From assembly GCA_950295325.1 (NCBI GenBank), contig OX485803.1, positions 74,725,554 to 74,789,553 of the forward strand: a stretch of DNA of 64,000 nucleotides, given 5' to 3'. The notes below the pieces were generated by a model. It saw nothing but the letters and a program-made list of their open reading frames with translations, did no database searches and was not told the DNA's origin. A program made the translations under genes and the position numbers. The stretch comes from Polytrichum commune. Lineage: Eukaryota > Streptophyta > Polytrichopsida > Polytrichales > Polytrichaceae. This document shows, piece by piece, positions 43,206-56,925 of this stretch (position 1 is its first letter; the number at the start of each line of letters is the position of its first letter).

Positions 43206-43860
43206 CAGGCTGCTAGCATTTTCGGAGGTTGAATAATGGAGTGGGGCCAGTAGTGTTCACACTATATCACTTTATAATTTAGTTAATTAGGTTTATTACA
43301 GAATAGTGATTGAGATAATTAGTTATTAGTAAGTGAGGGGATCACGAGGAATTAGATGGGGGATTAGGGGGTGACAATAGAGAAGAGCGTTTTTCAATGC
43401 TTGTACTAATGTCATGGAACAAATTGGTGTGCCAAAGTTGATGGGAAATGTAATGGATTTTAATGACGTTGGGAAGAGGGAGTTATGTGAACATGAATGT
43501 GATCCCCATGCCCTCACCCGGACTACGACGCATAAGGGTGGGCGATTTGGCCTCACACATGCTAGCATACAATCTTCTACACTCCTCTAGACTAATAGAG
43601 ATGCAAACTTCTTGCACTCGAACCCAGAGAGAGAAACAACTTCGGTCTCCGGAGGAGACCGACGTGAGTTAAGTGTCTGTTCGATCCACCTCCAATCCCA
43701 TGCCCACAGGACAAGGGTATGGAGGAAAAGATCTACTCCCCCCTTTCGAGAGTAGACACTTTAGACACAAGAAACCAGTAACACGGAACCACAGAGAAGA
43801 GAAACAACTTCGGTCTCCGGAGGAGACCGACGTGAGTTAATAACATGGAACCACACCTTA
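43206..43860. repeat. Non-coding stretch with a 42-bp direct repeat containing a hairpin
   Basis: Identical words beginning GAGAAACAACTTCGGTCTCC occur at 43631-43672 and 43799-43840. Each contains the stem-loop CGGTCTCC-GGA-GGAGACCG. The second copy is itself flanked by TAACACGGAACCACA and TAACATGGAACCACA. No gene was seen. Confidence 0.75.
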
Positions 43861-43903
43861 TATTATACCCAGTGACCCTTACCTGTAACTTTTAAGTTTT
43901 GAT

Positions 43904-46900
43904 TTATGGGGGGTCTAGAGTGAGGGGAAGCGGTTGGTGGTTTTCTATTCTCCTTTTGTGGAGGAGGATAGACATGGCATATTGTATTGCGATGGTATTA
44001 ATATTTTTAAATGTATTTTTGATGGTAGGCATGGGCATTTTGAAGTTAGTCTCGAGTAATTTCATAGATGGGATGTGAGCAGTAGCTCTGGCACCAGCAG
44101 TGATGACAATAAGTGGTTCGATTTTCCATCCTCTGGAGGCGATACTAGCAATTAGTGGTCTGTATTTGTTATTTTTTGCTTCAACTGCCTCTGGGGAGAA
44201 TCTGCTCGGGGGGGGGCAGTGTGTTAAAAAGTTAAGGATATAGGTGCGAACAACCACTATTTTATAGGGGGGTATTACTTTCAATTCTTCTTCTTTTTTC
44301 ACATGCTATCATTATGCAAATTTCTACTTTGGGTTAATAGAAAAATGGCTTGCATTACTTATAATTCCAAATTACCTATTATTCCATACCCTATAGTACT
44401 TTAAAGATGTCCAATGTCATTTTTGATACCCTATATTACTCTGAAGTCCAATTATAAAATTTTGCCCCCATGTTTTTAAAATACCCTATCATTTGTTCGC
44501 ACGTATATTGCTACTCCAACCAATGACTACCCCCCCGAGAGAATCTGTCATTGCAGTATGTGAATTCAATAAATTGTATGGTGAGGTTAGGGTCAATGTC
44601 TACGGGAGGGTCGTTTTGATATGGTAATCCCCTAACACAAAGGATATCAGGTCTAAATCTTGCGTTACAGTGGCATCTTTGTGTACCACATGTGCAGGGG
44701 AGTAGCCAATTGGGAACTGTGTTTTCTTGAGGATTGTTATTGAAGGTGCCAGCATTCATGAGAGTAAAGCACCGGGATTTTTCGGATGAGATTAGGAGTT
44801 TCCTAATTTCCCCAACTGCTTTGTTATGTCTTTTAACTCGAAGTGAGTGTATATGTTGATGTTTACATGCAAGTAGTACATGAAGCCATGTATCTGGTTC
44901 ATTTGAGTTACATATGGGGCACGTAATAGAGGGATATCTTTGGCAGCCGAAAAACAGTTGTTTCCTAGCATTACCCATGTAAGTTCCTGTGCGGAATTTA
45001 ATGAGGCATGATTTTTGTTTGTCGGTGATTGAAGGATTTTCCCAAAATTCGTTCAACAGCTCTTTGTCTATATCTACATTTTCTGTCCATTTACAAATGT
45101 TGGGGGTGTGTGTGGCCATGATTGCTAGGTTATTTTCTCTGTCATATTTTTTAATTTGTTTCTCTAAGAATCTGACTGGGCCTTTGTCTGGAACGTCTAT
45201 CATCGAGGCCCAGACATCCTTTTGGTAATAGTATGGGGTGGCGTGGGCATGTTCATATGGGTGGGTGGCAATTCTGTGTTCTAATTCTAATCCTTCTTTT
45301 GCTAGTTTATCTGCTTTTTCGTTGCCGTCAATGTTGACGTGTGCTCTAACTTTGTATAATGTGATTGGTTGTGTCCGATGTTGAAGTATTTGTACCATGG
45401 AGGCAAGTGTGGTTCGGTCTAGGTGGCTATTATGAAGGGTGGGGTGTTTAATTTGTGTGTTGAGTAGGTATAATACATTTAGACTGTCTGTGAATATGAA
45501 TGCGGGTTCGTTAGGATATTGTGTATTGATTATTCTTAGTGTTTTGTGTATAGCTATCATTTCTGCGCGTAATATGTTTTGATGTCCGTGTAGTCTTTTG
45601 GTAATATTTAAACCTTTGGGGCTATAAATACCATATCCAGCTCTTTCTCTTCTCCATACTCCAGGGGCAATTTCTTTGGGTTTTATAAAGGAACCGTCAG
45701 TGTAGTAGCTAAATTGTGGGTGGAATTTTAGAGGTAGATTTGTCTGGTAATTTGGGAGTTGTGGGGCAAGTGTGGTGTTATGTGCGACTATTTGTGGGTA
45801 GTTTAATTTAGACCATTTTTTACTGGGGTTAACAGTGGTATTTGAAGGGGTGGGTGGTGCAATTTGGGTGTGACTTTGTGTTATTTGGAGATTATTTGCT
45901 AGGTCCTTGAGTTGCTTCATTTGTTCGTAAGTACCAATGTTGTTGGTTTGATGGTGGATGCAGAATATTTGTATAGTAGATGGTTCTTTCCTTGTAGTAT
46001 TGAGTTCTGGGGGTATTATGGGTTCCTCATATGTGATCGTATCGGCGGCAAAGTGGGCGATAACGTGCGTGTCTTGGAATGGACCTATGTATGGGTTGAA
46101 GTTTTTGTACCAATCAGTATCCGGTGTTATGAGTATAGTGATTGTATATGGGTTGTTTTTGGCTGCCAGGCGAGCCCAGTGGATAGCTTGTTGTAATTCC
46201 GTTGCGTTGTGGGGGTGGGCGTAGCCAATTCCTTGCCATTTATGGTCAAATGCTTTCCCGAGGGATCCAAATATTATGTCTCGTGCGAATGGTGAGTAGA
46301 ATTGGGTGAATTGTGTGGGGCATGTAACTGGAGATGGAAAATATGAGTGGTTGATATTAAATGTAGTTATTAAGAGATCTAATATTGGGGTTGGAATTGT
46401 GTATTGGGCTCGTTTGAGTGGGTCATTTTTCGGAATGCGGTATTTGTATCTTTGGTATAGCCATACAATTTCAATTTCGAATGATTGGGTAGGTGGTTCT
46501 AGTCTGTGAGTGGAATGTTCTGTTTGTTGATATTGTTGTCATAACCATATTAATCTAGTTTTTGGGATGGTGATGAGGTGTCGGCCACTATCTTCGTATA
46601 TGTGAGCGACGTCAAATTGTATTTGGATAGTGTCAGAATTTGTTTCGATGTCATTTTCTAAATTGCATTCATTAATAGAAATGTGTGCCAGTGGAATAAT
46701 TGTGGTAGGTGTGACGTGTCTTGTATCTCTTTGTTGTTCTATGGAGAAGTGGGCATTAATAATGTTTAGGAAATGTTTGTGTTGTTTTCCTGTGTAGTAT
46801 TGGGAGAGTAGGTCGGTGTTGTGGTTGCTTGTGTTGGCATCACAATAGGGGTATAAGTCTCTTTGGGTTTGCCATTTATTATATGTATTGTTATTTGTTG

Positions 46901-49900
46901 TAGTCCATTGGCATAAGTATGATGTGACTGTTCTTTTTATTCCGTTAGGGTCGTTGGATTGTCGTTGTTTGTGATCGAGTATTTTGTGTATGAGAAATTG
47001 TTGGGGGTTTTTAATCATGTTGTTGGGAGGAGGGGGTGGATGGGGGATGGGAGGGTTTGGAGGGTGTATAGGGGGAGTCGGTAAATGAGGTAGGATGTTG
47101 TGGTGTCTTATTGTGTATTTGGTTTTGAGGGATCGTGGTGGATGGTGGTGTTGACATGTTAGGGGGCATTCCTGGTCACAGGGTGGATGACAAAATAGTT
47201 GGTTAGCAATGTTTAGTGCACTTTTGATGAGTTTAGAAGGGTTGGAGTGGTAGATTTTAAATTCGTCTAAGTTCATTAGAGTGGTGCCATTAGACATGGG
47301 TATTTGGTCTAGTTTTATTATATTATGTACTAGCAATTTGTGTAGTAATTTAAGTGAAGTGTTTGGGCTTAGACCGTGTAGTTCTTGTGCTTCTTGAGTC
47401 CACGCAATTTCGAGTGGGGATGGGTTTAATAGGAAGTTGTTTATAGTACTTTTTAGGTGGACTCCGGCTTTATGCTTGAGCAAGAATAATGTTCTAGTGA
47501 TAGGTGATCTGACACAGTGGTGGTATTTAATGCGGGTTAAATCCTTAGATCCTCCATATTTGGCAAGTATGTGTTGTATTAAGCCGGCATAGATTTTGCC
47601 AATTCTTCCTTTATCATTTAGGGCATTTTGTAGTTGTTTTCCAATACATCTTAAATAGGCATTTTGTAGTGAGAATGCTTCAATGCCGAATAGGTTACGT
47701 GGGAGTTGTGTAGCAATGTTAGATGTACATTTGGGTATTCCGCATATCGTTTTATGGAGTGCTATAATTCTTTTGTCAATTTTTTTGATAGCCGGTATGG
47801 AATATGGTACTGCGTAGAAGCTGTATGCTATTCCAGCACGTATGACTGTATCTGCCATATTGATTTTTTGTTTCATAGTTGCTGGGCATATAACGAGAGC
47901 TTGGCATTGTTTGATTACTTTAGCTGTAGTGGTATTTATTTGTGTTTTCCATTTGAGTGAGGGTGCAAGGTTTATTCCTAGATAGGTGTATGGTTCGTGT
48001 TGATGTAGGGTTGGTATAGGTTGGTTTTGATAATTTATGTTAGTGGCTTGGATTAGGGCTTTGAAAGTTATGGGATTCAGTTTGGATTTGTTTGGGCATC
48101 CAGTCACTGCACACTTGGGTATTCCGAGATCCATTCCTGCCCATTCACAGAATTTGTCTAATTTGTTTAGTTGTGTTTGTAGTGATTCTAGTTTGTTGGC
48201 AATTGCCGTTAGGTCATCTACATATGCTGCTGATGAGATTTTGATTTTGGATGTACCAAAAGTATATCCATTGTCCCCTTGTTGTAACCATCTAAGGAGG
48301 GGTTCTAAAAATATTATAAATAAGTATGGGCTGAGAGTGTCTCCCTGTATTGCACCTCTTTGGATGGGGATCGGTAAGGTTTTGTCGAAGTGTTCCCCGA
48401 TATATATGGTGGAGGATTGTGCTTATATATTTTCTATGAGGTATATTGAGTCAGTGGGATATCCTAGATCTTTCATTATGGCTAAGAGTCTGGCATGGTC
48501 AATGGAGCCGAAGGCATTTTTGAAGTCAATATAGAGTATGTATATGTCTTGATTCGTGAATCTTGCGTCTTCTAGTGTTGCGATAAGTAATTGAATTTGT
48601 CTAGAGGTACTTCTTTCCGTTCTGAATCCTTCTTGACTATCATGTAGTATTTGGTGTCTTTCTCCGTATGCGGATAGTATAGAAGTTAATGTGTTTGTAT
48701 AAAGTTTATATATGGTGTTAGCTAGTGCAATAGGCCTGTGGTTTGTAAAATGTGATGGATTTCCTTTTTTGTATAATAAAACTGTTAGGCTAGTTTTTCA
48801 TGATGCGGGAATTTGTTTTTGTTTGTAGCATTCTTTAAAGAATAGGAAGAGTAGTTTGTGGAAACGTGGGGGCATATTTTTTAGAATTGAGTTGGGAATT
48901 TTATCAGGGCCTGGGACTTTGTTATTTCCTAGATTTTTGAGACAGAAGTCGTAGGTTTCTTGGTCAAAGTATGTATGTAGGGGAGTTTAGGGTTCTCCTC
49001 GTTTATCAATTGTGTATCTATCTAAGTCGTGCCATGGATATTGCCTTACTCCGCATGTACAGTGTGGTGGGTGGGTATTTTGGTAGTGGCATGTGGGGAC
49101 TGTTGGGCGGTTACTAATGGATTGTTGTGTGTATATTTCTAATGCGATGTTTTTAGGGTTAGTTAGTATATTGTTGTGTTTGTCCATGATGGAGTCCAGA
49201 GGTGAGATTTCGGAGTTTTTGAAAACTTTTCTGTTTATTTTTTTTGGACTCTTTTCATACATCTGACGGTATTTTGATACAACTTTTAGGATACAGTCTT
49301 TGGTGTATTTGGTGGTGATTTTCCTGGCTTCTTTGTTGGCAGTTTTTGCAATGACAGCTATGGTATTAATCCATTCATTAGTAGATATAGTTGTTGTGGG
49401 TGGGTATGGGATACTTACATATTGGTGGTTACGGATTTCGTTTAGGATGGGGTGGGTTAGCCAGTGTGGGTCGTGTTGTGTAATGTATATAGTTTTCCTA
49501 ATGAGGTGGTATGTGGTAAGGTGTTTTTTCCACTCTTTAGCTAGTTTTCGTGGTAGAAACCCTCCTTGTTGTGATGTTCTGTACGTGAGGTTGGGTAGTG
49601 GGGCGGCTTTACAGGTTTTTTTAATGGTTTCTGAAATTTTGTTAATAATGTTATCTAATGAAGTGCAGGCTTCTTGCCATTGATCAGGGGTTAAGTATTG
49701 ATGATTTTCTAGTAGTGTGGTAAGTTCCTTTAGTTGTGTAGAGTTTTCTTCGAAGAATATTATGTTAAATTTTTCTATGTTTTCTGGTGGTATCGGGTTT
49801 AGTATTCTATTTGGTGGTATGTTTGTGGGGGGTGGGGGTCTGGCTATAAGTGTGTTGTGTGGGATGTGTAATGTGACTGGGTAGTGGTCTGAGTTTAGGT

Positions 49901-51575
49901 TCATAGTTGTGTTTGTAGTGGAAGTAAATTTGCTATTGTCTGGAGATTGGATGTAGAAACCATCTATTAGACTTGTTGATGTATAATTATAGTCCCCTTG
50001 TCGGGAAAGACTAGTGTTAGTTGGTATGTATTCAAGGTTAAGAGATGTGGTAAAGTGTTTCCATTGTAGATCCTCTTCTTGGGGAGGGGTGTGAGTGTTG
50101 TTAGTATGTCTTCCTTGGAGTGCAATGTCTCTGTTGAAGTCACCATATAGTATGTATATGTGGTTTGGATTTGTAGTAATTTGGTTAGTGATTTCGGTTT
50201 TGAGAAATGGGATAAGGCATGTGTATTTTAAGTGTGTGGGCATATACATGTGTACGATTAGCCATGGTATTGAGGGATGGTTGTTTATTTTGATTATTTG
50301 TAAATACGGGAAGATGTTTGCTGACGTGGGGATTTTGGTGACATTTCCAGGGAATGCATACTTGTTATGGATAAGTGTGAGTAGGCCGCCTCTTCCAGGG
50401 GTGTAGGGCAATCTTTGTTGTATGCATCTTGTGAGAGCATGTGTGTTGTTAAAAATAAGTTTGAACTCAGGGAATAGGTTCTGTATGTATTTTGTGGATT
50501 TGTTTGCTGTAAGTTTGGTTTCTTAGATATGTATGAGTGTTGTATTGTTTAGAGAGTTATTGATTAGGTTTTGTAAGTTTGGTAGTGCGGTGTTGAGTGA
50601 GGAGGCATTCCAAGTTATTATATTTGTTTCGTGATTGGTGTTAGTGTTGGTTCTAGGCTGTGGTGTGGGGGTGACTGGGGGTGGAGGCGGGTGTGAGTAT
50701 TCGTTAATATTTTCTAGGCAACGGAGTGATTCAGTTATTAATTGATTTGGGAGAAAAGGGAATTTGCTTTGAAGAGTGGTGGGTGTAAGTGTGATCTCTT
50801 GGTTGTGGATAAATTTATATAATTCTTTATGTATTGAATTTTTGGGGTGTATTATATCTTGGTTATTGTTTGTAAATGTTGTGCTTGGGTGTGGTGTTAG
50901 AATGTGTCGCTCGGGGGGGTTGGAAAGGTTGGCTAGTCTGATGAGTAATGTGTTTGTCCGTATGTTGTTAAAATGATAAATATGGGGTTGGGCTAGTATA
51001 TTGTTGCATGTGTTTATTGAGGGGTGTATAGTAATGGTAAGAGCATATAACATATGGGTTAGCGGGGAATGACTTTGTGTTATGATGTATTGGTGTAGGT
51101 GTGGGTATGTAGTGATTGTGTGGTGGTGTAGGGGGTGTGTGTGCTTGAGTATGGGGGCAAATGTGTTTGCTATGTGTTGGTATTCGGGTTGTAGTTTTAT
51201 TGTGTTTGGGATGAAATATAGTTTAGCTCGTTTTTTGTGTGTAGCGGGGTGTGTCCGGAGAACATTAGGCATTGGTCTTGGGTTGGGTTCTATGTCTCCA
51301 CATTGTAGTAGAGTTAACTTGTTGATGAAGTAGTATCCACGGAAGTGAAGTATTTTTGGTTTTTTCTTATTTGTTTTTTCGTATTTTATTGTTATGAATT
51401 TGGCTGTGGTAAAGAGGTTGGGTAGGGCGGGTGTTATGTTTTCTAATTGTTTGGGTAAGAAGTGTGTATGTGTGTTGTCTTTAGTTATGTGATTTGTTAT
51501 TGCATTAGGTTTCCATTTGTTTATGAAGTGGTATTTGCTATTAGTTTTATGGCGAGGCCGGTAGGCCGAGGCCAT
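43904..51575 (-). pseudogene. LINE ORF2: 2A-like / endonuclease / reverse transcriptase / RNase H
   Basis: Starts at ATG 51575 (MASAYRPRHK) and ends at TAA/TAG 43904 once the nested element is ignored. A 2A-like CGDIEPNPRP is at about residue 92-101 (51302-51273). Endonuclease: IHI-stop-ETK (50523), YGDFNRD (about 50144) and NSDHYPV (about 49892). RT: RGAIQGDTLSPYLF (about 48350) and catalytic YVDD (48213-48224). RNase H: YTDGS (45698), RAEM (45563), FTDS (45488) and NEKADKLAKE, so all four acidic residues are present. Knuckle: CPIC...H...C (about 44930-44880). One frame is kept over the whole length, broken only by stops at 50523-50525, 48987-48989, 48798-48800, 48423-48425 and 46539-46541. 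Host-unrelated; function would be target-primed reverse transcription. Confidence 0.88.
44205..44539. mobile_element. Nested 335-bp DNA element in LINE ORF2, with target duplication
   Basis: Flanked by direct repeats of agaatctg (44197-44204 and 44540-44547; nine bases if the preceding g is counted). Ends are inverted: CTCGGGGGG... and ...CCCCCCGAG, with a second matched block ATATAGGTGCGAACAA/ATATACGTGCGAACAA about 33 bp inside each end. The word ATACCCTAT is repeated several times inside. No ORF. Removing it with one duplication copy rejoins LINE ORF2 in frame (CNDRFS then PEAVEAK), as in the uninterrupted relic at 700-800. An 8-9 bp duplication fits hAT or Mutator-type elements. Confidence 0.85.
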
Positions 51576-51689
51576 TTTGCTTTTGGGTGAAATTTTGTGT
51601 TTTGTGTGGAAGTGAGTTGTGCTGTGAGGCAAAGTTTTGGGTGGGGTTTGAGGTTTTGGTATGGGTATGGGTTGAGTGTTTTTGATTTA

Positions 51690-53110
51690 TTTTTATTTGC
51701 TTTTTGGTGTTTTATGGGTACGAGTTTGGGTACGGTAGAGGGATTGGATGTTATGTTTCCTAAATGTATGGATGAAAAGTGTGTGTATGTGTTGTCTTTA
51801 GGTATGTGGTTTGATATTTTGCTAGGCTTCCATTTGTTTGTGGGGTGGTATTTATTAATAGTTTTGTGGTGAGGCCGGTTGATTTTTGGGGTAGATTTTG
51901 TGTTTTGAGTGAAAGTTGAGTTTTACTTTGCAGTGGAGTGTTGGATAGGGTTTGAGGTTTGGGTGGGAGTTGATTATTTGTGGCTTTTTTTTGTTTGTTT
52001 TTTGGTATTTTATGTGTTCGTTTTTAGTTATGGTAGAATGGTTGGGTAGGGTGTGTGTTATGTGAGGCTTCCTCTTGATTGTGGAGTTATATTGGTACTT
52101 TGTTTTGTGGCGAGGTAAATAGGCCGAGGCCATTTTGTTTATTTGATGAATCTTATATTTTGAGTGGAAGTAGAGTTTTGCTTGGAAGCAAATTTTTGGA
52201 TGGGGGTTAAGGTTTGGATGGGGGGGGTGTTTATGATGGAGTTTGAGTTTTGGATGTGGTCTTTGTTTTGGATATAAGCTATGTTTTGGGTATGCTTTGT
52301 ATTTTGGGTGGCATTCATTTCTTGGGTAATATCTGTATTTTGGGTGAGGCCTTTGTGTTTTGTGTTTTGGATGAGAGGTATATTTTGGGAGGGTGTTGTA
52401 TTTTGTTCGGAAAGTGTGTTTTGGGTAGTTGTTATTGTATGGGTGATTAGTGTAATTTGGTTTGTGGGTAGATTTTTGATACATACTTGATGTACTTGAT
52501 GTAGTGAAGTAGTATCCATATAAGTGACGTATTTTTGGTTTTTTCTTTTTTAGTTTTTGATATTTAATGAGTGCAAGTTTTGTTGTAGAGAAAATGTTGG
52601 GTAGGGTGGGTATTATGTTTTCTTTTTGTTTGGGTAAGGGGTGCGATTTTGCATAGTTTTTAGGTATTTGATTTGGTATTGAGTTAGGTTTCCAATTGTT
52701 TGTGAAGTGGTGTTTGTAATTAGTTATGTGGCGAGGCCGGTAGGTATTATATTTTGGGTGGGTACTATGTTTTGGGTGGGTATTGTATTTTGGATGGGTG
52801 CTATATTTTGAATGGGTACTGTATTTTGGATGGGAACTGTGTTTTGGATGGAAACTGTATTTTGGATGGAAATTGTATTTTGAGTAGATATTGTATTTTG
52901 GATGGGTACTGTATTTTGGTTGGGTCTTTTTTTGATGGAGTTTGTACAGGTATGAGGTACAGAATTTGTATTTGTTTTTCAAATAGTATTTTGGACATTG
53001 AAGAATACCATGTGTAGTATTGTGGTATTTAGTATTTATTCTAGTATGTATTTTGTGTATAATATTATATCTGTGTACGTGTACGTATACAATGGAGTAT
53101 TGCAATAAAT
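51690..53110 (-). repeat. Tandem modules and minisatellites between LINE ORF1 and ORF2
   Basis: The module that opens ORF2 (RPRHKTNSKYHFINKWKP ... LPNLFTTAK ... KKKPKI) recurs, diverged, at about 51690-51878 (in another frame), 51980-52132 and 52500-52743. Each copy is followed by sequence with GAGGCC and TTTTGG words. Only the ORF2 copy carries the 2A-like motif. Between copies lie runs of an 18-bp unit (TTTTGGATGGGTACTGTA on the plus strand), most regular at about 52750-52925. Confidence 0.75.
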
Positions 53111-53138
53111 ACTTTTTACCTCGGCGATTTGTGGTCAA
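51855..53138 (-). other. Long Tyr/Lys/Pro-rich open frame overlapping the end of LINE ORF1
   Basis: A 427-codon open frame that overlaps the ORF1 stop in another frame, with TTG rather than ATG at its nominal start. It encodes many HPKYST/HPKYNT hexapeptides (from the 18-bp repeat) and two copies of the PRHKT module. It could be a LINE-encoded linker reached by frameshifting or re-initiation, or simply a repeat that stays open because its period is a multiple of three. I favour the latter but cannot exclude the former. Confidence 0.4.
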
Positions 53139-54873
53139 TCCACATTTGGTTGGTCGTTTAGCATAAGGTTCGGGCTTACCAAGCCGGTAATTTGTTGCAT
53201 CCCTGTAAGTGCCAAGGTCAAAGTGCTTTGGATGTCCCTCATTTGCTTTTTCAATTTATCATTGATTTCATCCGCGTAGATGTGGGCCTCTTTTACTATA
53301 TCATCTTTCAAATCCTTCATGTCTTTGTGTAATTCGGTTTTGAGTTTCTTGTTACCTTCTTCAATTGCCTCCTTCATGATGATAAAAACGTCTCCCTTTG
53401 TTGCACTTGCTTCCCCTTGGCTTTGATTTTGGATTGCTTCAATTGTGTTTACCAAACAAATGTTAGTATCTTCAAAACCAAATTTGACCAGTAATTCTTT
53501 GGAGGGTTTTTCATTACCTTCAAGACTTCGACGGTGTGGGGTAATTTCCACATGGTAAGCTCCGATTTTTGCTTCTTTCCCTACGAATTTCCTATACACA
53601 ATGGGGTTAAGGCATTCCACATTTGCACTTCCATTATGTCTCAAGCCATCTTGTTTGTGGAACCAAATAGATACCACATTTTTGGTTCCCAAAATTTTGC
53701 AAATTTCAAGAGAAGTATCATCAATATTCATCAAGATGGGGAGGTTGCAGAAGGTGAGGGTAAGAGCTTCTTTCTTTACCTTTTGCTCCAAGGTGAGAGA
53801 GGGGCCTTTCTTCACTTGGCCTTCAAGGATTAGTTGATGTGTTGATACTTGGAGGGTTTGGATTTTCTTGGCTTGGTGGGGGGAGGGAGCAACAATGTAA
53901 GCATGGTTGTTAGGGGTGCTCTTTTGCACCTCTACTATCTCAAAATCATGGCCTCTTCTAAAACTACTTTCTAGTATATCAAGAAAGAGGGCATGGGATG
54001 ACACTCCAATCAATGTGTCATTAGAGATTTTGATGGAGAGGTTGTTGTTTCGAGCAATTGAGTGATATGATTTACACACCTTACCAAGGCTTCCAATATT
54101 TGAGTGGGGCTCAAGGTGGAGAATGAAGGGTCTAAGGCTTGTGAGTAGGGCAACTCCATCAGTTTCGGGATGAAGGAGGTGAAGTTTGACTATTCCAGCC
54201 CATACTCCCTTTTCCCCACCCCTCTTAATACTCATGCATAAAATTGAAATGGGTTCAATAAGGTTGGTGCCTAATGGAATTTGCATAGTATTCAATCTTT
54301 TCTTAACAAGCTCCTTTACATGATTATGGAAGAGGGGGTTGTTAGGGAGCTGAAAATGAATGGCAATTTGGAAGTCCAAAGACATGCAAGAGATAGGGTC
54401 AGTTTCAATCACAGATGGGAGTTGAGTAAGGTTAAGGTGCTGCCCAGGGGGTCCATCATTTCTCTCACCGGGATAAAGTATCTGTGGCACTCTGGGGTAG
54501 GAAATGCTTACGTTTTCTAGTTCTTCTGCTTCTTTGCGGGGGATGCCTCTGGTGACTCTATCAGCGATGGTTTCGTAAGTGAACAGCTCGTCCAGTCCTT
54601 GCTCTGCCGCAAGCTTTTCCATAGCCTTGAACCCAAGCCAGAGTTTGAGCTTCTGTTTGGAGATGAGTTCCGGCCCTTGAGCTGCTGTTCGGGGCGACTG
54701 TCTCTGCTGGGAAGTTGAGGAGGGGGATGTCCCAACACGATCTCTGGTCCTCTTCCCGCTTGCGGCTCCTTTGGGCTGGTTCTTAGCCTTATCAGCTAGG
54801 AGTTTTTTTCAGACTCTGAGAAGGAGAGTCTACCTCCATGACGTCTTCGTCCACTTCGAAGGCTTTCGACAAG
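53135..54873 (-). pseudogene. LINE ORF1 (RNA-binding-like, coiled-coil)
   Basis: The main frame runs 54622 to 53135 (495 aa), but its coding character extends upstream. MALSKAFEVDEDVMEVDSPS opens at 54873 in another frame and meets the main frame at an A7 tract near 54807 (LKK then LLADKAKNQPKGAA), so a single-base slip separates them. The middle (TLTFCNLPILMNIDDTSLEI to VECLNPIVYRKFVGKEAKI) has the pattern of an RRM. The last ~90 residues (EAIEEGNKKLKTELHKDM and on) are a likely coiled coil, followed by the stop at 53135-53137. Such ORF1 proteins bind LINE RNA. Bounds of the RRM are by eye. Confidence 0.75.
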
Positions 54874-55654
54874 GCCATTGGGATCGGATTTGTTGTTTCT
54901 CCTCTGTCAGATCTTCGAATTCGGAGATGTTGATGATGTCGCCGGGAGTTGTGAGGGTCAGTCTTGTCAACTTGGGGTGGGCCGCTTATCGCTCGGTGTA
55001 GATCGCCGTTGTAGACCACTGCTCCCGCTGCTCTTGGATCGCCGCTCCTGCTTGCAAATAAATCTAACTTGTTGTGTGACCTACTAAGGTTAAGGGCTGG
55101 ATCTAAAGGGGGTGAGTCTGTGCTGGGTTGAAGAAAGAGGGAGAATGTGCTTGCGATGTATATGAGAGAAAGAAGGAGGCTCCTTCTGTGTGATGTATAA
55201 TCTATTTTCTAGACAATGTGTTCCTGGTTCGGAGCAGTGACCGGGAGTATCAGTGTGTCTATGTCCTTGGTGTTTCGCTTCCACCCAAATGTGGTGCTTT
55301 TAATCTCAGATCTAGAGAATTTCAAGACATGAGGATGGAGTTTTCAATCACAATGCTACCAACCGAGCCCCAGCTCTTCAGAATGCTCTAATCATGAAAT
55401 CTAACTGCCATTCCTACCTGATTGAGTTTCTGGATCTGATACTGAGCATTCACACGTACCCCTCCAACACTTCTAAGCACCTCTCCAAACACCCTGACCA
55501 ACTGTTCTCAAATGCGTGCGGGGTAACTACAAGTCCAGCTCCTAGCAGCACACACACCGATCTCAGCGGCTACTCCACAGTCACTCACCTCCCCAGGGTT
55601 TCGGAGCCCCTTAGCAACACCTCATTGGGCCGCCCTTCTACTCCACACACACAC
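54874..55654. other. Probable LINE 5' UTR and unidentified sequence
   Basis: On the minus strand the frame upstream of ORF1 stays open to 55019, but this is probably leader. 55280-55650 has an even composition, rich in CCTCC and CACACAC words; it is not matched to anything else in the window. The junction with the Tc1-like element is around here. Confidence 0.35.
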
Positions 55655-56623
55655 TCAATCGGCAACTAACCTATAGGGTGTCCAGTCTTTATGTTGGATG
55701 GATGGGAGGTACGTTCGCACTCGAACCCATATTTGAAGAATACCACTATGAAGACTAGAGTATGAGTTTAATCGCCGTTTCAGTAAAGCCCATATGTGCT
55801 CAATAGGATTTGAGTCAGGGGAATGTGCAGGCCACTCTAAAACACAAAATGGTTGCTTTCCAAACCATTCTCAAACAATCTTGGTTGTATGCACGGCAAC
55901 ATTGTCTTGTTGAAAAATGATTTCTTCAAGATTGAACCCAAATGCAAGCAATGTACTACACAAATCTTGCTCTAAAATTGCAATGTAGCCTCTAGCATTC
56001 AAGTGCCTTTGTATATTATGCAATGACCCCAATCCTCTACAAGTCAAACAACCCCAAAGCATTATAAAGCCTCCACCATGCTTCACAATTTGGTTCACAA
56101 CACGCATAGGGATGTTTTCTTTGTCCCCTATCCAACACCAAGTCCTCCCATATGAATTGAAATGACATATTTTAGTTTCATCACTAAACACCACCCGCTC
56201 CCAATCACTCATAGTCCAATCTTTGTGCATTTGAGCAAAGGGAAATATGTCTTTGATGTTCTTCCGACTCAAAGCATGTTTTTTAACCTTCGTAAAAGAA
56301 GGCAATCCTTGTTCTCTCAATGCATTCCTCAAGGTATTGTCGCACATCTTTACACCCATCTCTCTTCGAAGCACTTTTGATGCCTCTATTGCAGTTTCGA
56401 AACTGCCAACAATAACTAGCGGTGAAGCATAACGCTTCTCCCACTCTGTTAGGACCTTAGGTTGACCTCCTTTAGACAATGCTACACTCGTAGAAAGCCT
56501 CTTTCTCACTCTATTAACTATAGATTGTCCCAAACCCACACTCTTTGCAATCTCTCTACTGCTCCTCCCCTTCTCTATCAAGGCTACAATATTTTGCTCT
56601 TTCTCTCGTGAAATGGGTCTCAT
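55655..56623 (-). pseudogene. Tc1-like (DD34E) transposase with one nonsense codon
   Basis: From ATG 56623 (MRPISREKEQ): N-terminal paired helix-turn-helix region (REIAKSVGLGQSIVNRVRKR), then the DDE core with VFSDETKI (first Asp), FQQDNVAVHT (second Asp) and, after an in-frame TGA at 55871-55873, EWPAHSPDSNPIEHIWALL (Glu). Exactly 34 codons separate the second Asp and the Glu, the Tc1 spacing. The frame ends at TGA 55655-55657. The TGA lies between KIV and EWFGK, so the last third, including the catalytic Glu, would not be made. No other damage was seen. The protein would cut and paste DNA at TA sites. Confidence 0.9.
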
Positions 56624-56925
56624 CTTTCTATACAACCTCCATAAAGCCACGAGTATTCCACACGATGAAGAAACAAGAAAATGAGAGCTCTCAAAGAAGG
56701 TAGCAAGCAACGCCTCAAAAACTGAGTCTATGCGACGTTGACGTCTCTCTTCCTCTCACCGAAACCTTAGTGAAGTTGATGACATCACCATGACATCATC
56801 TGAAAGTCAACCTCTAGTTCTCTTACAATTACATTTTACATTTCCTAAATATATCATTATCTTTTTGTGAAATGCCCATGAAAGTCCTTGTTTGATGCAT
56901 AGACTCGGTTTTTGGAGTCATTGTA
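55655..56925 (-). mobile_element. Tc1-like transposon, 5' end intact, 3' terminus not found
   Basis: The 5' terminus is at 56898-56923 with GCATAGACTCGGTTTTTGGA then GTCATTG, followed by TA. A second inverted copy of the motif (CCTCAAAAACTGAGTCTATG) lies at 56713-56732, upstream of the transposase, so a 213-bp TIR-bounded unit sits in the leader. No matching terminus appears below 55655, so the 3' end is truncated or replaced. Confidence 0.75.

Follow-up and report, generated by a model that had tools for sequence, protein, structure and literature searches.

A decayed 2A-like sequence in a Polytrichum commune LINE probably belongs to a conserved StopGo peptide located N-terminally in ORF2 of a large group of moss retrotransposons

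The stretch of DNA analysed here, which we call the window, is 64,000 nucleotides long and comes from the moss Polytrichum commune (GCA_950295325.1, contig OX485803.1, positions 74,725,554 to 74,789,553). It carries, on its minus strand, one copy of a two-ORF LINE whose second reading frame contains a short sequence resembling 2A (StopGo) peptides. In window coordinates, the features of this copy are as follows.

43628..55625, minus strand: LINE extent in common with a sister copy, L044, in three pieces that are 97-100% identical
43794-43840: short gap in the extent shared with L044
53135..54622, minus strand: ORF1, 495 aa, no recognised domain
51276..51575, minus strand: leader peptide, from the nearest in-frame ATG to 2A position 18, 100 codons
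51273..51317, minus strand: 2A-like sequence LTLLQC-GDIEPNPRP; the minus strand reads LTLLQCGDIEPNPRP
51273-51299, minus strand: 2A core GDIEPNPRP, with an Arg codon (AGA) where Gly is expected at 51276-51278
50688..51275, minus strand: conserved domain of ~195 residues directly after the 2A (alignment A3)
49875..50590, minus strand: APE region of ORF2 (upper limit by eye), with PF14529 at 49875-50261, E 2.2e-5
48000..49000, minus strand: reverse transcriptase (RT) region of ORF2, with the catalytic box YVDD in the translation
45288..45710, minus strand: RNase H domain, PF00075, E 1.4e-13
44510..44930, minus strand: CCHC zinc knuckle and probable restriction-like endonuclease (RLE; RPDI...EFTYC), limits by eye

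The ORF2 frame runs through the APE, RT, RNase H and CCHC/RPDI blocks and is broken by a few stops. An extra 334 bp (44205-44538), with ~9 bp shared at its edges, lies inside the probable RLE domain, where it splits the K..KY part from RPDI...EFTYC; it resembles a later insertion. Because of the stops in ORF2 and this extra stretch in its last domain, the window copy looks dead, judging by its sequence. Its PF14529 match scores below the curated cut-off, in keeping with a decayed copy, and relatives pass for PF14529 or PF03372. The coding strand of ORF2 is rich in A and C and poor in G in 8/8 stretches of the LINE group (A 0.38-0.40, C 0.25-0.28, G 0.11-0.13; A 0.38 and C 0.27 in the window stretch). 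The region that separates ORF1 from the leader (51633-53138, minus strand) contains an array of an 18-bp repeat and diverged tandem copies of the leader unit (PRHKT...KKKPK...GYYF), and an ORF at 55871-56710 (minus strand) resembles, by eye in translation, a fragment of a Tc1/mariner transposase.

The first-pass annotation of this DNA had described a degenerate 2A-like motif in ORF2 of a LINE, ahead of the endonuclease and behind a leader of about 100 residues. The motif is indeed present at 51273-51317, and the endonuclease, RT and RNase H lie in the same frame. Counted from the nearest upstream in-frame ATG, which begins at 51575, the Arg is residue 100 of ORF2, in agreement with the annotation; it is position 18 of the 2A, and with it the window copy fails the core criterion (D/G/C/N)(V/I)ExNPGP. 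We collected sister copies by a DNA search with a 451-base query around the motif, which itself accounts for 27 of the 451 bases. Scoring 40 of 379 first-look candidates gave 65 rows, comprising 40 places with the query region, one of them in the window, together with 25 weaker hits on related upstream repeats. Gly occupies position 18 in 38 of these 40 copies, the exceptions being the window copy (Arg) and L018 (Glu); NPGP is intact in 36, the strict core D(V/I)ExNPGP in 33, and (D/G/C/N)(V/I)ExNPGP, which admits the accepted Gly12 and Asn12 forms, in 35. Sister copies therefore carry the Gly that the annotation had expected in place of the Arg, and the D-x-E-x-N-P block, on whose conservation its reading hung, is kept in them and also in distant families with other leaders. 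"Degenerate" is an apt word for the window copy and not for its family, and we rejected degeneracy as a family trait.

A degenerate DNA pattern for GD[V/I/M]ExNPGP, GGNGAYRTNGARNNNAAYCCNGGNCCN, gave 137 + 124 = 261 matches in the 407.8 Mb genome, whose 64 contigs include seven of 42 to 78 Mb. Neither of two controls, the same letters read backwards and the pattern with its codons in reverse order, had a match in the genome. Forty motif loci (L048-L087), fetched for codon diversity from the first 100 matches listed, were selected by motif and are uninformative on its frequency. All 40 have the ~195-residue domain after the motif, and all belong to one LINE group; their leaders vary between families, and most of them end in a Leu-rich stretch. 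Upstream stretches such as LLQCG, LLLLSG and LLLLCG resemble the Leu-rich (A/S/C)G viral classes that are paired with Asp12.

Selection on the motif was estimated as pN/pS over 110 codons in 34 of the 40 copies found by DNA similarity, one having been dropped when its core was missed by the search expression and five for a stop in the stretch. In these stop-free copies the leader (codons -60 to -13) had a ratio of 0.51. The ratio was 0.11 over the 12 codons that precede the core, 0.10 within the core itself, where the free position was excluded, and 0.14 over the next 41 codons; for the same four segments, eight subfamily representatives gave 0.54, 0.10, 0.05 and 0.15. Selection is tighter at the motif than in the rest of the leader, and in the window leader, too, constraint is weak except in the final 12 residues ahead of the core. 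Among 47 core sequences that we compared (listed GGNGAYRTNGARNNNAAYCCNGGNCCN matches, picked by pattern and ending two bases into the final Pro codon) there are 32 distinct 26-mers, which differ in synonymous codons and at position 15. All fixed core positions show synonymous variation apart from Glu14, whose codon is GAA throughout. For cores picked by pattern this shows no more than that codons differ where the peptide stays the same, in keeping with conservation of the peptide and not of the DNA.

Loci were also gathered without selection for the motif: the post-2A domains of two families served as genome-wide queries (150 scored of 707 candidates and 150 of 756), and motif presence at the C1 and C2 matches was judged against the listed GGNGAYRTNGARNNNAAYCCNGGNCCN matches. 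Of 64 family 1 loci, 40 carry the strict core where it is expected, 39 of them to the exact base and one with an offset of 13 bases. In family 2, it is present in 6 of the 36 loci used; 11 of the 47 C1/C2 rows of that search (four family 1 loci and seven partial rows) had been left out, and one of the seven partial rows has the strict core, making 7/43 in all. The GD[V/I/M]ExNPGP pattern is found in 46 of the 100 loci used from both families. Among the 24 family 1 loci without the strict core, 13 have His14 or His16, four have Lys14, five have another single core change and two have no proper core. The 30 corresponding family 2 loci comprise 11 with Gln14, five with His14 (one of them, L130, is one residue out of register and was read by eye) and 14 with single changes, frameshifts or losses. 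The commonest form is the strict core in family 1, and Gln14 is the commonest single form in family 2. Upstream of the core, QCG, KCG, LSG and LCG are common in family 1 (by eye), a context that suits Asp12 2A forms; in family 2 the context is often HG or GG (His or Gly, not A/S/C), which suits these forms only partly (again by eye). Position 15 is mostly Thr or Pro in the LINE cores versus Ser in the matching viral classes.

According to the available sections of a viral survey, His14 and His16 variants are more than 95% active in natural contexts and Gln14 is 26 to 56% active, and Lys14 is absent among the forms that these sections list as active (PMC12846837). In the moss, Lys14 (GDIKPNPGP, GDVKPNPGP) occurs in L111 (C1:51775957-51776196), L114 (C2:1298023-1298262), L146 and L151. 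Several Lys14 copies have long open frames, among them L111, L146 and L151. The presence of Lys14 in long-frame copies and of Gln14 in family 2 suggests that skipping is reduced or lost in some lineages, or that these forms are tolerated by the ribosomes of this plant.

The elements that carry the motif meet the features of non-LTR retrotransposons, with an RT (PF00078), 5' truncation, target-site duplication and a simple 3' tail (LTRs were not searched for separately). Full-length copies L040 and L043 are ~10.5 kb long with TCTA-repeat ends, L041 is 5'-truncated and has a 10-bp target-site duplication, and a TCTA-repeat 3' tail is present in 4/4 copies examined. PF03372 is above cut-off in L145 and L149, and PF14529 in L149. 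The RT of L041 matches PF00078 with E 8.3e-31, and the solved structures nearest to the RT are R2 retrotransposon proteins (E 2e-31), followed by 8c8j (E 6.8e-17), which we take to be human L1 ORF2p. Downstream of RNase H, RPDI...IQFIEFTYC follows the CCHC knuckle in 4/4 sequences, with K..KY in the three that reach it. A profile of the C-terminal region compared with PDB sequences at E up to 10 retrieved R2Bm alone, at the CCHC knuckle and the RHNK block and weakly (E = 1), and an AlphaFold model of this region was too weak to use (pLDDT 33).

In the parts available of the relevant accounts, the combination of APE and RLE marks Dualen (PMC4640811), and the tails of green-algal RandI elements are (ATT)n and (CTATTT)n (PMC3747384). 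Going by their domains, the moss elements appear to be two-ORF LINEs with an APE, an R2-like RT, an RNase H and a probable RLE, resembling Dualen/RandI, with the clade not settled in the absence of a tree. Like the Dualen/RandI LINEs of green algae, as far as these are covered in the same partial sources, they have a microsatellite-type 3' tail rather than poly(A) and appear to unite APE, RT and RNase H with a probable RLE in a single element; they differ from them in their land plant host, in a PCIF1-like domain between RT and RNase H, and in their 2A sites, of which those sources make no mention for Dualen/RandI (PMC4640811, PMC3747384, PMC8226300). For flowering plants, the accessible portion of one of these accounts lists only L1 and RTE, and it does not cover mosses (PMC3747384). 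Identity as plant L1 was rejected: plant L1 is described, in the part available, as having the CCHC upstream of an archaeal-type RNase H (PMC5348765), whereas here the CCHC is downstream of RNase H and the RNase H matches PF00075. Membership of the I group, considered from the combination of RNase H and APE, was dropped in view of the CCHC and RPDI..EFTYC after RNase H and of an RT that matches R2 best, again without a tree.

The PCIF1_WW-like domain (PF12237) between RT and RNase H was found in L041:7904-9997 (plus strand; residues 4-78) with 33.6 bits against a cut-off of 31.1, and residues 1684-1770 of the L149 ORF2 match PF12237 below cut-off (26.8 bits). NPPF, the catalytic motif of PCIF1, was not seen in this domain in L041 or L149. 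A PCIF1-bearing retrotransposon was not found among the literature matches listed (titles and abstract openings). Apart from the LINEs, at least 14 chlorophyll a/b-binding matches of the same score lie within ~95 kb at G000:C5:1751760-1846160, a large tandem array. The genome has 58 matches to this family in total; ranking behind a multi-domain LHCI chain, which has the top score over two stretches, PDB chains 8htu_U and 7xqp_a of Physcomitrium photosystems are the closest to one of these proteins, in keeping with a land plant and probably a moss.

To describe the region ahead of the motif, we used ten N-terminal regions. These had been picked for the length of their frames or on a suspicion of tandem motifs and do not form a random sample. 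In four of the ten (L146, L150, L151 and L153) the ATG of ORF2 lies within the last 8 bases of ORF1 (stop counted); no such overlap was seen in L145 or L148, and the other four have broken frames or an ORF1 that is not clear. Termination-reinitiation occurs in other LINEs, and because the ORF2 ATG overlaps the end of ORF1, these sequences suggest that ORF2 may be started in this way here. From the ATG at the end of ORF1, the open frame gives a leader of ~550 residues before the first 2A in L146, ~420 in L151 and ~165 in L153. In the window family the leader would have 100 or about 230 to 280 residues, depending on which start is used, and some sister copies are open further upstream. The leader of about 100 residues given in the first-pass annotation thus holds for the window copy from its nearest ATG and does not extend to L146, L151 and L153. 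Six of six leaders examined, all selected for their long frames, are free of stops in the coding frame, against 14 to 38 stops in each of the other two; the longest frames that stay open through the 2A and the domain after it have 2919 and 2924 codons, the latter in a Lys14 form. No domain was recognised in the leader. Leaders start with a hydrophobic stretch in L146, L151 and L153 (19-residue Kyte-Doolittle means of 1.3 to 1.7), and the best 19-residue window near the start reaches only ~0.9 to 1.1 in L145, L147 and L148. The post-2A domain is predicted to form the N terminus of the released polymerase protein; its AlphaFold model was too weak (pLDDT 60), and the one match that Foldseek returned for it, at E 7.1, is not significant.

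The number of motifs per ORF2 varies. There are three 2A-like sites in one 648-codon frame of L147, two in L152, L153 and L154, and one in the other six of the ten regions (two of them Lys14). In L147, L153 and L154 the motif is repeated within ORF2 without a full post-2A domain after each copy. Leaders were also compared in eight pairs chosen by eye. Over the 25 residues before the core, L098 shares 19/25 with L123 and 2/25 with L099; over the 20 residues after the core, it shares 6/20 with L123 and 20/20 with L099. On this alignment evidence, the leader of L098 is exchanged at the 2A junction.

Together, we put at roughly 85% the probability that the motif in the window is a degraded version of a 2A (StopGo) peptide that is conserved in the N-terminal region of ORF2 across a large group of two-ORF LINEs in a land plant. 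Our data establish the presence and position of this peptide, its conservation at the protein level, its variant spectrum, the open frames, the tandem copies and the exchange of modules at the junction. We also think it very likely that ribosome skipping at NPG/P separates the leader peptide or peptides from the polymerase, an inference drawn from sequence without a translation experiment. The ribosome would make a leader ending in a Leu-rich stretch and (G)DIExNPG and would then fail at the next Gly-Pro bond; the leader would be released, and synthesis would resume from the Pro to give an APE-RT-RNase H-RLE protein separate from the leader. Where an ORF2 contains two or three 2As, several small leader products would result. 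As for purpose, we infer, and offer only as our opinion, that a variable and partly hydrophobic leader is kept off the polymerase and that leader cassettes become swappable.

A chance resemblance in a single low-complexity, A/C-rich open frame can for practical purposes be discounted. An A/C-rich strand does favour open frames and codons for Asn, Pro and Thr, but the motif is not a chance match because the genome holds 261 copies and no match to either control pattern, a result that refutes this explanation. The motif is, moreover, conserved across families with differing leaders, and the six long-frame leaders are stop-free in the coding frame only. A second alternative, which we regard as unlikely though less easily dismissed, gives GDIExNPGP a conventional role in the structure or binding of the ORF2 protein, such as that of a capping loop ahead of the next domain, and no influence on the ribosome. 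In its favour, the block and the adjoining domain are both conserved in protein sequence, and long-frame copies with Lys14 do exist. However, the residues kept and the substitutions found (His14, Gln14, His16 and the free position 15) track those of viral StopGo sites, and the Leu-rich stretch ahead of the core is as constrained as the core itself, unlike the remainder of the leader. The repeats in L147, L153 and L154, which lack a full domain after each motif, and the exchange of leaders exactly at the junction also speak against a purely structural role.

The skipping reading has a variant that does not exclude it, in which weaker forms (Gln14, perhaps Lys14) set the share of leader-polymerase fusion, maybe with different targeting of the fused product. 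Gln14, partly active in viruses, is frequent in family 2, some leaders start with a hydrophobic stretch, and the sea-urchin 2A signal sequences, in the portion of their description available, offer a precedent (PMC4981915). We nevertheless consider this variant possible but doubtful, given that the strict core is the commonest form in family 1, that the starts of L145, L147 and L148 are only weakly hydrophobic and that different targeting is surmised without a prediction or an experiment behind it.

Odon is said to have described, in 2013, 2A-like sequences in animal APE-type LINEs and in trypanosome L1Tc, located N-terminally in the polymerase ORF before the endonuclease. The moss LINEs have the same arrangement, including the 2A core with its Leu-rich lead-in, and differ in being hosted by a land plant, in their R2-like RT and probable second (restriction-like) endonuclease, in having up to three 2A-like sites per ORF2 with leader exchange at the junction, and in their core forms, with His14 and Gln14 frequent and some His16. 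A variable number of 2A-NPGP sites in one ORF, separating unrelated short peptides without known relatives, is likewise described for Paavivirinae picornaviruses in the available part of one report (PMC11512398); the moss elements are plant retrotransposons and not viruses, and no relation is implied. The sea-urchin sequences, as far as the accessible text goes, similarly have a hydrophobic region alongside their N-terminal 2A, by which product made without skipping may be sent to another location, but the 2A signal sequence in the sea-urchin NLR genes has 26 residues (PMC4981915) and the moss LINE leaders have ~100 to 550.

The available text of two papers indicates that 2A constructs work in plants (PMC12846837, PMC4981915), and one of them that a natural sea-urchin 2A functions in N. 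benthamiana (PMC4981915); as of 2026 the other, in the sections available, finds no evidence of natural StopGo in plant viruses even though 2A works in plants (PMC12846837). No report of a plant LINE with a 2A was found among the literature matches listed (titles and abstract openings); the main 2A surveys were outside this scope, and prior publication is not excluded. We lean, with some reserve, towards the broader proposal that a land plant uses natural StopGo on a large scale, with the ORF2 of a dual-endonuclease LINE giving rise to two to four proteins by way of one to three 2As and the junction serving as an exchange point for leader cassettes. The 261 core motifs, together with the purifying selection measured in the LINE family, indicate where natural plant StopGo should be sought. 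They are also a source of numerous native 2A sequences from a plant, some of them in rare core forms (His14, His16 and Gln14), whose efficiency can be measured on plant ribosomes. Both the number of 2As and the identity of the leader vary within one transposon group, so that the role of 2A leaders in LINEs becomes testable. If our interpretation is correct, plant biology would include a natural use of 2A, with transposons rather than viruses as its carriers.
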